Shown here: piece by piece, positions 28,292-34,532 of the stretch
Layout of the letters: each line of letters begins with the position of its first letter
Position numbering within the stretch: the first letter of the stretch is position 1
NCBI RefSeq assembly: GCF_020832205.1
Contig: NZ_JAFIFD010000041.1
Span: 1 to 64,000 of the forward strand
Direction of reading: 5' to 3'
Length of the DNA stretch: 64,000 nt
Origin: Exiguobacterium sp.
GTDB lineage: Bacteria; Bacillota; Bacilli; Exiguobacteriales; Exiguobacteriaceae
Position numbers and translations under genes: made by a program
Notes under the pieces: model-generated
Databases searched by the model: none
The model's input: only the letters and a program-made list of their open reading frames with translations
What the model was told of the DNA's origin: nothing

Positions 28292-29482
28292 ATGGTGAAC
28301 GATCGGAACATCTTGCTTTGTGTGAGTGGCGGTATCGCCGCCTACAAGGCGTGTGCACTTACATCGAAACTCGTTCAAGCGGGTGCGAACGTCCGTGTGG
28401 CGATGACGCAGTCGGCTGAACAGTTCGTCGGGAAAGCGACGTTTCAAGCGCTCAGTCGCAATCCGGTATATACGGACGTGTTCAAAGAGCACGACCCGAC
28501 GAAAATCGCTCATATCGACATTCCGGACGCAAGCGACTTGATCGTCGTCGCCCCGGCGACGGCGAACATGATCGCCAAGCTCGCCAATGGAATCGCCGAC
28601 GACTTCATCACGACCTCGATCTTGGCGGCGACATGTCCGGTCATCGTATCGCCGGCGATGAACGTCAATATGCTCGACCATCCGGCAACACGACGAAACA
28701 TTGAGACGCTCAAATCATTCGGCTACCAAATCATCGAGCCGGGTGTCGGCAACCTCGCATGCGGCTGGATCGGCGGGGGACGTTTACCGGAACCAGAAGA
28801 CTTGTTACGTATCATCGAGAGCCAGTTCGTCCCGAAACACTTGCTCGGGAAACGTGTGCTCGTGACAGCCGGTCCCACGGTCGAACGCATCGACCCGGTC
28901 CGCTTCTTGTCGAACGATTCATCTGGAAAGATGGGTGTCGCCCTCGCTGAGGCGGCCCGAGATATGGGAGCAGACGTCACGCTCGTGCACGGTCCGCTTC
29001 AAATCCCGGTCCCGGCCGGAGTGACAGCCATCCCCGTCGAATCAAGTGCAGATATGCTCGAGACGATGCTCGCCCGTTTTGATGCGCAGCACCTCGTCAT
29101 CAAATCGGCGGCAGTCGCCGATTACCGCCCAAAAACGGTTCATGCCGAGAAACATAAAAAAGTCCATGGGCCGTTGACAATCGAACTCGAGGAGACGACC
29201 GACATTTTGAAGACGCTCGGGATGCGAAAGACAACCCAAACGCTCGTCGGGTTTGCAGCTGAGACGGAACATCTGGAAACCCATGCCCGTGCCAAGCTCG
29301 AGAAAAAACGAGTCGATTATCTCGTGGCGAACGATGTGTCGACACCGGGTGTCGGTTTCGGGGCCGACGAGAATGAAGTGACGTTGTTCCGGGCGGACGG
29401 GTCTTCCACCCGACTGCCACGCCAAACGAAACGTCAACTCGCCATCGAACTGCTCACGCATTTCAAGGAAGGGATCCAATGA
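28292..29482 (+). CDS. coaBC: Bifunctional phosphopantothenoylcysteine decarboxylase / phosphopantothenate-cysteine ligase
   Basis: Performs two consecutive steps of coenzyme A synthesis. The N-terminal CoaC flavoprotein part (about residues 1-185) has H74 in KIAHIDIPD, the APATANMIAKLANG block, and C157 in NLACGWIGGGRLPEP, which match the catalytic His and Cys of Dfp. The C-terminal CoaB part starts around residue 186 (GKRVLVTAGPTVERIDPVR). Length is 396. ATG 28292 lies after AAGGGGGAGA. It overlaps priA by four bases. Confidence 0.96.
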   Translation: MVNDRNILLCVSGGIAAYKACALTSKLVQAGANVRVAMTQSAEQFVGKATFQALSRNPVYTDVFKEHDPTKIAHIDIPDASDLIVVAPATANMIAKLANGIADDFITTSILAATCPVIVSPAMNVNMLDHPATRRNIETLKSFGYQIIEPGVGNLACGWIGGGRLPEPEDLLRIIESQFVPKHLLGKRVLVTAGPTVERIDPVRFLSNDSSGKMGVALAEAARDMGADVTLVHGPLQIPVPAGVTAIPVESSADMLETMLARFDAQHLVIKSAAVADYRPKTVHAEKHKKVHGPLTIELEETTDILKTLGMRKTTQTLVGFAAETEHLETHARAKLEKKRVDYLVANDVSTPGVGFGADENEVTLFRADGSSTRLPRQTKRQLAIELLTHFKEGIQ

Positions 29483-31803
29483 TTGCCCACGTCCATGTCG
29501 ATGCGCCGGTCATCACGATCGACCGCCCGTTCGACTACGAGGTGCCGGTCCAGTTCGAATCGCTCATCGAACCAGGAATGCGCGTCTCGGTCCCGTTCGG
29601 TTCAAGACGTCTGCTCGGAATCGTCACCGGTCTGTCCCCAGGGACGAGAGAAGGACTGAAACCGCTCGAGGCGCTGTTAGACGAGACGTCTTCGCTCACC
29701 GAGGAATTGCTCGACTTGTCGACCCACGTGAAAGAGACGACACTATGTTTTCGCTCATCGGCTCTCCTCGCGATGCTCCCGGCCGCATTGAAGGTAAGTT
29801 ACGATAAAGAAATCAGTGGGACGGACCTCCCGGAAGGTGTCCGTGCCGGGACACATTTATCGGAATACCCGAAAGACGTGCAATCCGTCATTTTAGAGCG
29901 CGCGAAAAAAGGAGAGTTGACGTTGTCGCCTGTCCTCAAAGAAAAGCGGACGGTCAAAACCGACCTCGTCATCGAACTCTTGGACGCGACGGTCGTCCCG
30001 GCCCGTGCGAAAAAACAGCGTGAAGCGATTCAATTGTTGGAAGACGTGCCGCGCATGTACTGGTCGTCGCTCCGTCAAATCGGACTGTCACGTGCGCAAC
30101 TGCAAAAGCTCGAATCGCTCGGCGCCGTCCGGGTGACCGAGATTGAACTGAATCGAGATCCGTACGCCTTGATTGAACAAGTGACCGAGACGGTCGAGCT
30201 AAACGACAGCCAAACGGTCGCCGTCAAAGCGATTCGCGAAGCCGAAGCCGGAGAGACGTTACTGTTGCACGGTGTGACTGGCAGCGGGAAGACGGAAGTT
30301 TACTTGGAAGCGATCGGACGCGTCGTCGACGAAGGGAGACAAGCAATCTTGCTCGTCCCTGAGATCAGTTTGACACCGATGATGGTGAAACGGTTCAAAC
30401 GACGGTTCGGCGACCGGGTCGCCGTGCTCCATAGCGCTCTTTCACAAGGCGAAAAATACGATGAGTGGCGGAAAATCAAACGCCGCGAAGTCGATGTCGT
30501 CGTCGGTGCGCGTTCGGCCGTGTTCGCGCCGCTCGAACGAGTCGGCCTCATCATTCTCGACGAAGAGCATGAGACGACGTACAAGCAAGAAGAAAACCCG
30601 CGCTATCACGCCCGGGACGTCGCGATTTGGCGTGCCCGCTACCACGGGTGTCCGGTCGTGCTCGGCAGCGCCACACCGTCGCTTGAGAGTTACGCCCGCG
30701 CTCAGCGAGGGGTTTACCGCTATTTACATTTGAAAGAACGATACGGTGGAGAAATGCCGCCGGTCCATATCATTGATATGCGACGCGAGCTGGCTCGAGG
30801 GAACACGACGATGTTTTCGGAAGACTTGTTCCTCGCCATCAACGACCGCATTGCGAAAAAAGAGCAGTGCGTCATCTTGCTCAATCGCCGAGGCTTCACG
30901 ACGTTCGTGATGTGCCGGGACTGCGGCGAGGGACTCACCTGTCCGCATTGTGCCGTCAACTTGACGTATCATCAGCACGGTGACCGTCTGAAGTGCCACT
31001 ACTGTGGTTATGAGATGGGCATGCCGTCGAAATGCCCGGCGTGTGACAGCAAGAAAATCAAACAGTTCGGGACCGGTACGCAAAAGATCGAGACCGAGTT
31101 GTTGAACCGGATTCCGGACGCCCGGATCATTCGGATGGACCAAGACACGACGTCACGAAAAGGGTCGCACGAACAACTGCTCAAACGATTCGAAGACGGG
31201 GAAGCCGATATCCTGCTCGGCACGCAGATGATCGCCAAAGGGCTCGACTTCCCGAACGTCACGCTCGTCGGGGTGCTCGCAGCCGACGCGACGCTCGGCA
31301 TGCCAGATTTTCGGGCGACCGAGCGGACGTTCCAGCTCGTGACCCAAGTCGCCGGCCGAGCCGGACGAGGAAAGTTGCCGGGCGAGGCGTACGTCCAGAC
31401 GTACAATCCGGACCATTACGTCATCGAGACGGCGAGCCATCACGACTTCGAAGCGTTTTACGAACAAGAGATGAGGTTGCGGCAAGTCGGGAGCCATCCG
31501 CCTTATTGGTACATGACGCTCGTCACGGTCGCGGCTGAAAACCCGCTCGTCGCCCAAACGGAGGCGGAACAGTTCGCCGAGGACTTCATGAACGCCCACG
31601 TCGAACAATCGAGGTTGAACGGGCCGATGCCCGCCCCGTTGTCCAAACTTAAAAACATGTATCGTTACCAACTGTTCATCAAGACAAAACAGCCGGAGGC
31701 GCTTTATCCGGTGCTCGCCATGCTTCAACAAGCGCGGGCGAAAGCGATCAGCAAGAAAGAATATCAATTGAGTATCGATGTAAATCCATACGTATTCATG
31801 TGA
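29479..31803 (+). CDS. priA: Primosomal replication-restart helicase PriA
   Basis: 3'-5' DNA helicase that reloads the replisome at repaired forks. The order is N-terminal DNA-binding domain, helicase core with Walker A GVTGSGKT at residues 265-272 and DEEH box ([14 protein letters not shown]), then the zinc-binding insert with eight cysteines (about 479-520, including [13 protein letters not shown] and CHYCG). Length is 774, near B. subtilis PriA. It starts within the coaBC stop. The def-fmt gene follows after 11 bases. Confidence 0.97.
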
Positions 31804-31814
31804 GGTGGAATGAG

Positions 31815-33200
31815 ATGTATAAAGTAGTAGAAATCCCAAATGAGATATTACGTGTCGTCTGTGAGCCGGTGACGAAGTTCGATAAAAAGTTGCGGCAGAC
31901 GGTCGACCGTCTGTTCGATACGATGTATGAGTATGACGGCGTCGGTGTCGCGGCCCCGCAAGTAAACTTGAACCAACGGCTCGCCGTCGTCCATACCGAC
32001 GATGAGACAGGACCGCTCGTCTTGATCAATCCAGAAATCATCGAGACGTCTGGAAAAGAAGTCGGTCTTGAAGGGTGTCTGAGCATTCCGGGTGAGTTCG
32101 GGTTTGTCGAACGACACGAGACGATCGCCGTCAAGACGCTAGACATGAAAGGGCGCGAGCAACTCGTTACAGCGAGCGGCTTCTTCGCCCGGGCGATCCA
32201 ACATGAGATCGACCATTTGGACGGGGTGTTGTTCACCGATAAATTGGCCGTGCCACGGAAAGGGACCGACCAACGCATCGTCTTCATGGGAACACCGACG
32301 TTCGCCGTGTCCGTACTTGAGCGCTTGCTCGAAGAAGGATACAATGTCGTAGGTGTCGTCTCCCAACCCGACAAACCGGTCGGACGCAAACGGGAGTTGA
32401 AACCGACGCCGGTGAAAGCGAGCGCGCTTCGCCACGGTATCCCGGTGTTGCAACCAGAGAAAGTCCGCACCGATTATGCGGACATTTTAGCGCTCGAACC
32501 TGATTTGATCGTGACGGCGGCGTACGGCCAGATTGTCCCGACCGAGCTGTTAGAGGCCCCGACACACGGCGCCATTAACGTCCACGCCTCGCTGCTCCCG
32601 AAATATCGGGGCGGGGCGCCGATCCATCAAGCGATTCTTGACGGAGAGAAAGAGACAGGCGTGACGATCATGTATATGGTCGATCGGCTTGACGCGGGCG
32701 ATATGATCGCCAACACAATCGTACCGATCGAGGAGACGGACACGGTCGGCACATTGTTCGACAAACTCGCGGTCGCAGGATCGGACTTGTTGATTCAAAC
32801 GTTGCCGGCTTTCCTCGAAGGTTGGATCGAAGCAGTGCCGCAAGACGAGCGTGACGTCACGTTCGCCCCGAACATCAGCCGGGACCGGGAACAGTTAGAC
32901 TGGTCTCAGCCGGGCGAAGTGATCTTCAATCACATTCGGGGGATGAATCCGTTCCCGACGGCGTACACGTTGATCGCAGGCGAACGAGTGAAAGTGTTTG
33001 CGAGCGAGAAGACGACCGGAACGGGTGAACCGGGAACGATCGTACGGTTAGAAGACGACGGTTTCGTCGTCGCGACGGGCGATGCGGTCGCGATCAAAGT
33101 GGTCGAGCTTCAACCGGCTGGTAAAAAACAAATGGACGGTGCCACGTTCATGCGCGGCGCCGGACAGAAGTTGCAAGTCGGCGACCGATTAGGAGGATAA
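31815..33200 (+). CDS. def-fmt: Fused peptide deformylase - methionyl-tRNA formyltransferase
   Basis: One 461-residue frame encodes two enzymes that are normally separate adjacent genes. Residues 1-144 are a type peptide deformylase: motif 1 GVGVAAPQ (42-49), motif 2 EGCLS (86-90, C88) and motif 3 HEIDH (130-134), which hold the metal and the catalytic Glu. After a linker of about nine residues (AVPRKGTDQ) the Fmt domain begins at [10 protein letters not shown], with N255, H257, the [12 protein letters not shown] loop (259-270) and D293; the N-to-D spacing of 38 equals that in E. coli Fmt. All key residues are present, so both activities look intact. ATG 31815 follows AGGTGG. No Shine-Dalgarno stands before GTG 32250 or other internal starts. 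Confidence 0.93.
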
Positions 33201-33203
33201 ACA

Positions 33204-34532
33204 ATGAATGTCAGACACGCAGCGCTAGAGACGCTGATTAAAATTGAACAAGGTGGGGCTTACTCGACGATCGCGGTCAACGAGTTATTGAACCAAAAGA
33301 AGTTGGCGACGAAAGATGTCGGCTTATATACCGAGCTCGTCTACGGGACGCTCGGACGAAAACGGACGCTCGACTACATTTTAGAAAAGCGGATCCACAA
33401 TCCGAGAAAGCTCGACCGTTTCGTCTTGCCGCTTCTCCGGATGAGTGTGTATCAACTGTTTTATCTCGACAAAGTGCCGGACCGGGCCGTGTTGCACGAA
33501 GCCGTTGAAATCGCGAAACGAATGGGGCATTCCGGCACAGGCAAGTTTGTGAACGGGGTGTTGCGTAACGTCATCCGTGACGGGTTCCCTGATTTGAGCG
33601 GACTACCTGATGCCGAGCGCATCGCCATCGAGCATAGCCATCCGGACTGGCTCGTCGCGGATTGGATTGAGACGTACGGTGTCGAAGCGACCGAGGCGAT
33701 GTGTAAATTGAACAACGAGCCCGCTCCAGTGACGGTTCGGGTCAACCGGAAACGTGCCAGCGTCGCTGAGATGATCGAACGTCTCGCTGACGTCGGTGTC
33801 GTCGCGATACCGTCCGCCTTGTCGGCAGACGGCCTCGTCATCGAATCAGGCAACGTCCATCAGACATCGTTCATCGACATGGGTCTCTTGTCGATCCAAG
33901 ACGAGAGCTCGATGATCGTCGCCGACGCGCTCGACGCGCAGGCGTCATCGCACGTGCTCGATGCATGCGCGGCACCAGGCGGGAAAGCGATGCATACAGC
34001 CGAACGGATGGACGGTGGGACGCTCGTCGCCCTCGACTTGCATCCGCATAAAGCGAAATTGATTGAACGTCAAGCGAAGCGACTACACATCGATGGAGTG
34101 ACCGCACTGGCCCTCGATGCCCGCGGCGCCGGGGACGAGTTTGAACCGGAAAGCTTTGATCGAATCTTGCTCGACGTCCCTTGTTCGGGACTCGGTGTCA
34201 TTCGCCGGAAGCCGGACATCAAATGGACGAAAGAAAAAGCCGCGCTAGCCGGGTTGCCGAAAGTCCAACGTGAAATTATCGATGCTGTCTTGCCTCTCTT
34301 AAAACGAGGTGGTACGCTAGTGTACTCGACATGTACGATCGACCCGTCTGAAAACGAAGAGCAGGCCGACTACATTTTGTCGAACGGATTGACGTGGGAT
34401 GAGACACTCCGTGAGCGTCTTCCCGAAGTATTACGGCCGATGGTGTCATCGGACCGCGCTGAACTTAAATTACTCCCGACGACGTTTGGGACGGACGGCT
34501 TCTACATCGCCGCCTTCAAGAAAGAGGTATAA
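33204..34532 (+). CDS. rsmB: 16S rRNA m5C967 methyltransferase RsmB (Sun)
   Basis: SAM-dependent methyltransferase of the NOL1/NOP2/Sun family. A NusB-like N-terminal RNA-binding domain covers about residues 1-130. The catalytic domain has the SAM motif LDACAAPGGKAMH, the first conserved cysteine C327 in DVPCSGLG and the nucleophile C377 in STCTIDPSENEEQ. Length is 442. It starts four bases after the def-fmt stop, with AGGAGG overlapping the end of that gene. Confidence 0.96.
   Translation: MNVRHAALETLIKIEQGGAYSTIAVNELLNQKKLATKDVGLYTELVYGTLGRKRTLDYILEKRIHNPRKLDRFVLPLLRMSVYQLFYLDKVPDRAVLHEAVEIAKRMGHSGTGKFVNGVLRNVIRDGFPDLSGLPDAERIAIEHSHPDWLVADWIETYGVEATEAMCKLNNEPAPVTVRVNRKRASVAEMIERLADVGVVAIPSALSADGLVIESGNVHQTSFIDMGLLSIQDESSMIVADALDAQASSHVLDACAAPGGKAMHTAERMDGGTLVALDLHPHKAKLIERQAKRLHIDGVTALALDARGAGDEFEPESFDRILLDVPCSGLGVIRRKPDIKWTKEKAALAGLPKVQREIIDAVLPLLKRGGTLVYSTCTIDPSENEEQADYILSNGLTWDETLRERLPEVLRPMVSSDRAELKLLPTTFGTDGFYIAAFKKEV

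Follow-up and report, generated by a model that had tools for sequence, protein, structure and literature searches.

A fused peptide deformylase and methionyl-tRNA formyltransferase gene in Exiguobacterium, and its apparently independent counterpart in a second class of Bacillota

The 64,000-nucleotide stretch of Exiguobacterium DNA analysed here (the window) carries a gene in which peptide deformylase (PDF, or Def) and methionyl-tRNA formyltransferase (Fmt) are joined in a single frame. We consider it very probable that this gene encodes a genuine bifunctional enzyme, most likely derived by a small deletion in an ancestral Exiguobacterium priA-def-fmt-rsmB cluster. The frame runs on the plus strand from an ATG at 31815 to a stop codon ending at 33200, and the 461-residue product has a computed mass of 50.3 kDa; the preliminary description of this DNA had proposed one such 461-codon frame from Def to Fmt, and profiles of both enzymes (Pfam and NCBIfam) indeed matched it. 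A Shine-Dalgarno-like GAGGTGG can be read 5′ of the ATG (31802..31808, plus strand), and GAGGTG preceded the fusion start in 35 of the 35 sequences compared, some genomes being present twice. The neighbours, both on the plus strand, are priA upstream (29479..31803; NF004066/TIGR00595) and rsmB downstream (33204..34532; TIGR00563).

A Pfam scan of the protein placed PF01327 at residues 1 to 145 (165.3 bits; cut-off, 22.8), PF00551 at 154 to 330 and PF02911 at 354 to 449. The TIGR00079 match, which also reached residue 145 (171.7 bits; cut-off, 103.95), together with the three catalytic motifs GVGVAAPQ at 42, EGCLS at 86 and HEIDH at 130, identified the N-terminal half as a PDF, and with the structural model the domain was drawn at residues 1 to 143 (31815..32243, plus strand). 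For the second half (residues 154 to 461; 32274..33197, plus strand), TIGR00460 matched residues 154 to 453 with 328.2 bits, above the curated cut-off of 201.5, and both Fmt domains were present along with N255, H257 and D293, the Asn, His and Asp being catalytic residues of Fmt. The motifs and residues named earlier were thus all intact and at the positions given for them. The best PDB sequence match for the Fmt half was 4iqf (E value of 1e-119, residues 154 to 460), and in each of the best 60 of the 63 PDB matches to the fusion, the best aligned stretch covered one half only. By sequence, the two halves are homologous to E. coli PDF and to Fmt (1fmt/2fmt; we take 1fmt to be the E. coli protein).

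The def-fmt fusion of Exiguobacterium is already published and largely explained. Passages of a 2025 paper in Mol Biol Evol (PMC12690207) report the fusion from four reference genomes of Exiguobacterium, and according to them an E. coli strain deleted for def-fmt regains growth at a level comparable to that of the wild type when supplied with the fusion from E. alkaliphilum, so the earlier remark that no studied fusion was known is outdated. Like the published fusion, the window gene is one CDS in an Exiguobacterium genome, joins the same pair and is accompanied by a second complete PDF gene elsewhere in the genome. The two differ in that the gene tested in the published passages came from E. 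alkaliphilum, whereas the window fusion is known here from its sequence; both activities in vivo are thus backed by complementation for E. alkaliphilum only (PMC12690207), while those of the window protein are predicted. The expectation that both activities are functional agrees with the intact active-site residues and with the complementation by the congener's fusion. The linker, the origin of the fusion and a second fused clade have no description in the passages and Discussion of PMC12690207 considered here, and what the present analysis adds to the published fusion is the finding of separate, close genes in the nearest Bacilli, the purifying selection, the replacement of the PDF tail and the second clade.

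Within the genus, Ka/Ks values (Nei-Gojobori method, pairs with Ks below 1.5, i.e., 105, 48 and 95 of 171 pairs for Def, linker and Fmt, respectively) were 0.037 for Def, 0.148 for the linker and 0.057 for Fmt; strong purifying selection acts on Def and Fmt alike. In an alignment of 46 fused proteins from Exiguobacterium and from the second fused clade described below (the window protein plus 45 of 53 inspected fused loci), Def residues G42, G44, A46, Q49, E86, C88, L89, S90, H130, E131 and H134, as well as Fmt residues N255, H257, R265, G266 and D293, were invariant. All five motif patterns were fitted by 43 of the 53 loci, and the other 10 had one or two residue variants or a masked stretch (L142).

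A separate second PDF was matched in 38 of 38 genomes of the GTDB order (the match in G013 being flagged with one stop), and the one in the window's genome, with 181 residues, has GVGIAAPQ, EGCLS and HELDH. With such a match in all 38 genomes, Exiguobacterium may not depend on the fused Def in vivo, and it could be hypothesized that the fused Def is a passenger, the second PDF doing the deformylation and the fusion being tolerated drift. The presence of the second PDF across the order, and its full set of motifs in the window's genome, fit this explanation. However, Ka/Ks is lower for the Def half than for the linker or the Fmt half, the congener's fusion rescues E. coli lacking def and fmt (as reported in the passages of PMC12690207), and genomes of the second clade often show no PDF other than the fused one; we therefore regard a passenger role as rather doubtful. 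The earlier suggestion that fusion gives equal amounts of both enzymes holds for the fused halves, which form a single chain, but not for total PDF relative to Fmt, since the second PDF matched in each of the 38 genomes means that the two totals need not be equal. In the bifunctional enzyme that we favor, the Fmt half would formylate Met-tRNAfMet and the N-terminal Def half would deformylate nascent chains. The halves would not have to be directly coupled, as the protein would amount to two enzymes on one chain, each with its usual job.

Comparison with related loci points to the origin of the gene. Among 80 named loci, the 12 best were fused, all of them from Exiguobacterium, 67 had separate genes, and one (L104) had no Def match; def and fmt were thus separate but close in 67 of the 68 non-fused named Bacilli loci. 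In the 67 separate pairs, fmt started between −8 and 30 nucleotides relative to the end of the def stop codon. Eight Bacilli loci (L060 to L067) are near-fusions, with def and fmt sharing a frame and a stop codon plus 3 to 30 bases between them. The separate pairs encode the same enzymes as the fusion, and L135 has, by eye, the same order of priA, def, fmt and rsmB. They differ from the window fusion in giving two proteins, with Def keeping its own C-terminal tail where the fusion has a linker: counted from the H of HExxH, a separate Def has 24 to 38 residues up to its stop codon, and the window fusion has 24, ending just ahead of the Fmt strand RIVFMG. Compared with the 67 separate pairs, the linker (L144 to Q153; 32244..32273, plus strand) replaces the C-terminal tail of PDF and the start codon of fmt, and its length of about 10 residues bears out the nine or so proposed before. 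With the two genes overlapping or only a short distance apart in 67 of the 68 named relatives, a fusion needs only a small deletion. The most likely starting point would be a tightly packed priA-def-fmt-rsmB cluster in the Exiguobacterium ancestor, where a small deletion would have taken out the end of def, both tail and stop codon, together with a few intergenic bases and the start codon of fmt, so that the frame continued across a short linker.

The AlphaFold2 model of the fusion (mean pLDDT of 93.9) had both Def and Fmt folded; with a pTM of 0.76, how the two domains sit relative to each other is uncertain. The final modeled Def helix spans residues 140 to 143, with no helix at 144 to 153 nor anywhere between 143 and the Fmt strand at 154 to 159, and the mean pLDDT for residues 141 to 150 was 76. 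E. coli PDF has been described, in the passages drawn on here, as docking on ribosomal protein uL22 via its C-terminal helix (PMC8712518, PMC12690207). E. coli PDF and Fmt are, moreover, separate polypeptides, and the ribosome-binding helix of the former is missing from the modeled fused Def, which on this model may act without tail-mediated docking on the ribosome. The idea that the fusion brings Fmt near the ribosome is left without support, since the model shows no helix where E. coli PDF has the tail that docks on uL22. That the fusion was selected for coupling formylation and deformylation at the ribosome is, for the same reason, improbable, all the more so because def and fmt are so close in the named relatives that a small deletion suffices. 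The apparently independent fusion in a second class of Bacillota does hint at a recurrent advantage, or else at easy tolerance.

We also considered whether internal initiation could supply some or most of the Fmt, or whether cleavage at the linker could occur, giving two separate enzymes. By Ka/Ks the linker is less conserved than either half, it is modeled with lower confidence, and in-frame GTG and TTG codons do occur near it; the commonest in-frame start codon near the junction, TTG at residue 139, is present in 16 of the 19 sequences of the genus. However, no ATG, GTG or TTG in the 40 codons upstream of Fmt strand 1 was common to all 19 genus sequences, and a 5-base Shine-Dalgarno core near the junction was found in 0 of 19 genus and 2 of 11 sister-genus sequences. 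The only start codon common to all 19, Met158, lies inside Fmt strand 1. Judged from these sequences, internal initiation is unlikely, and we give the production of two separate enzymes very little weight relative to that of a single chain.

The fusion frame was free of stops in all 19 genomes of the genus, the window's own included, and in all 38 genomes of the GTDB order, which comprises two genera; the same domain pair, the presence of which in related genomes had been proposed as a check, is thus found throughout the order. In a search of 398 Bacilli genomes, the matches listed included 38 fused rows, all from the window's own family, and 56 rows outside the family that covered both domains and were interrupted by one or more stops; among the matches listed, none of the remaining 304 genomes had a row covering both. 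Between species, the linker varied from 8 to 15 codons (13 in the window gene, with the boundaries used for the Ka/Ks analysis), as expected of a real spacer. A hidden stop codon or a lost separate fmt start is excluded by the stop-free frame in 19 of 19 genus and 38 of 38 order genomes. Although def and fmt share a frame in 8 of the 67 separate pairs, parted by a stop codon and a few bases, so that a small sequencing or assembly error could mimic a fusion, the chance of such an error here is negligible, given the identical stop-free frame in 38 of 38 genomes with linkers differing in length and sequence, and the four reference genomes reported in the passages of PMC12690207.

Beyond the Bacilli, a sample of 299 Bacillota genomes yielded at least six further stop-free frames spanning both enzymes, and all six listed belonged to one other class. 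This second class includes a genome, G451, that appears to match Thermaerobacter marianensis; its fusions include loci L130 to L133, and it is also the class of G623. A search of 151 genomes of this class with a profile of fused proteins gave 82 rows spanning both domains, 70 stop-free and 12 flagged with a stop. Adding to the 70 two flagged genomes that were fused on inspection (G693 and G698, loci L144 and L139), and counting the other 10 flagged rows as non-fused (G687, G718 and G722 of these were inspected), the fusion was present in at least 72 of the 151 genomes, 41 of the 72 having been inspected as loci. By BLAST, 40 of 81 second-class genomes had the fusion, some being missed, e.g., G646, which was fused on inspection. 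A low-GC member was also fused (L144; GC of 0.43), so the fusion is not merely due to the scarcity of stops in GC-rich DNA. Frames of 957 to 1707 amino acids in four genomes (G698, G717, G732 and G714) were considered as PriA-Def-Fmt triple fusions and rejected, as PriA ended at its own stop in all four, either ahead of the long frame or in a different one.

In a tree made by a quick method from 76 loci less two (L142 and L159), the Exiguobacterium fusions formed one clade among Bacilli with separate genes. A tree joining both fused groups was rejected (AU test, P = 7.95e-07), and the two fusions therefore look independent, the one in the second class having apparently arisen separately from that in Exiguobacterium. 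A single clade of fusions inside the second class was not rejected (p-AU of 0.257). The second-class fusion has the same domain order as the window fusion and the invariant residues in both halves; it differs in its separate origin by the tree test, in its linker sequences and in often being the only PDF found. This survey of fusion origins covered one phylum, Bacillota. Among open-licence papers, of which PMC12690207 alone appeared relevant to the fusion, and in the main text of that paper, we found no report of a second fused clade; the word Thermaerobacter has no occurrence in that main text, and no paper pairing Thermaerobacter with both enzyme names was found.

When 47 second-class genomes were searched with PF01327, 42 were fused (41 inspected loci plus G711, fused by BLAST), and 35 of these 42 had no other PDF match, the two pieces in G697 being counted as one PDF; the other 7 had a second PDF match. 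As many second-class genomes are incomplete, absence of another PDF is firmest for the nearly closed ones, and none was found in G451 and G405 (one contig each), G489 (two) or G575 (three). In five genomes of family f179 (L151, L154, L159, L160 and L165), the D.GD of Fmt reads D.GP, the Def motif of L160 is HEMEH, and four of the five carry a second PDF; from these sequences, the fused Def may be drifting in this group. In L128, L129, L130 and L133, a gene of about 225 to 229 amino acids with an HEVGH motif, presumably zinc-peptidase-like, lies between def-fmt and an RsmB-like frame. A similar gene with HETGH is present in the non-fused L134, and none was seen at that place in the window.

We conclude that the def-fmt fusion probably arose at least twice in Bacillota, and that about half of the sampled genomes in a deep class including Thermaerobacter carry it, there probably in most cases as the sole deformylase, so that one polypeptide would do both ends of the formyl-methionine cycle without a docking helix of the E. 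coli type. Genomes in which the sole detected PDF is fused to Fmt, seemingly without a docking tail, would test whether PDF must anchor at the tunnel exit, and those of the second clade would also test whether cells can keep PDF and Fmt at a fixed 1:1 ratio. Thermaerobacter, a cultured thermophile, would be natural material for such tests.
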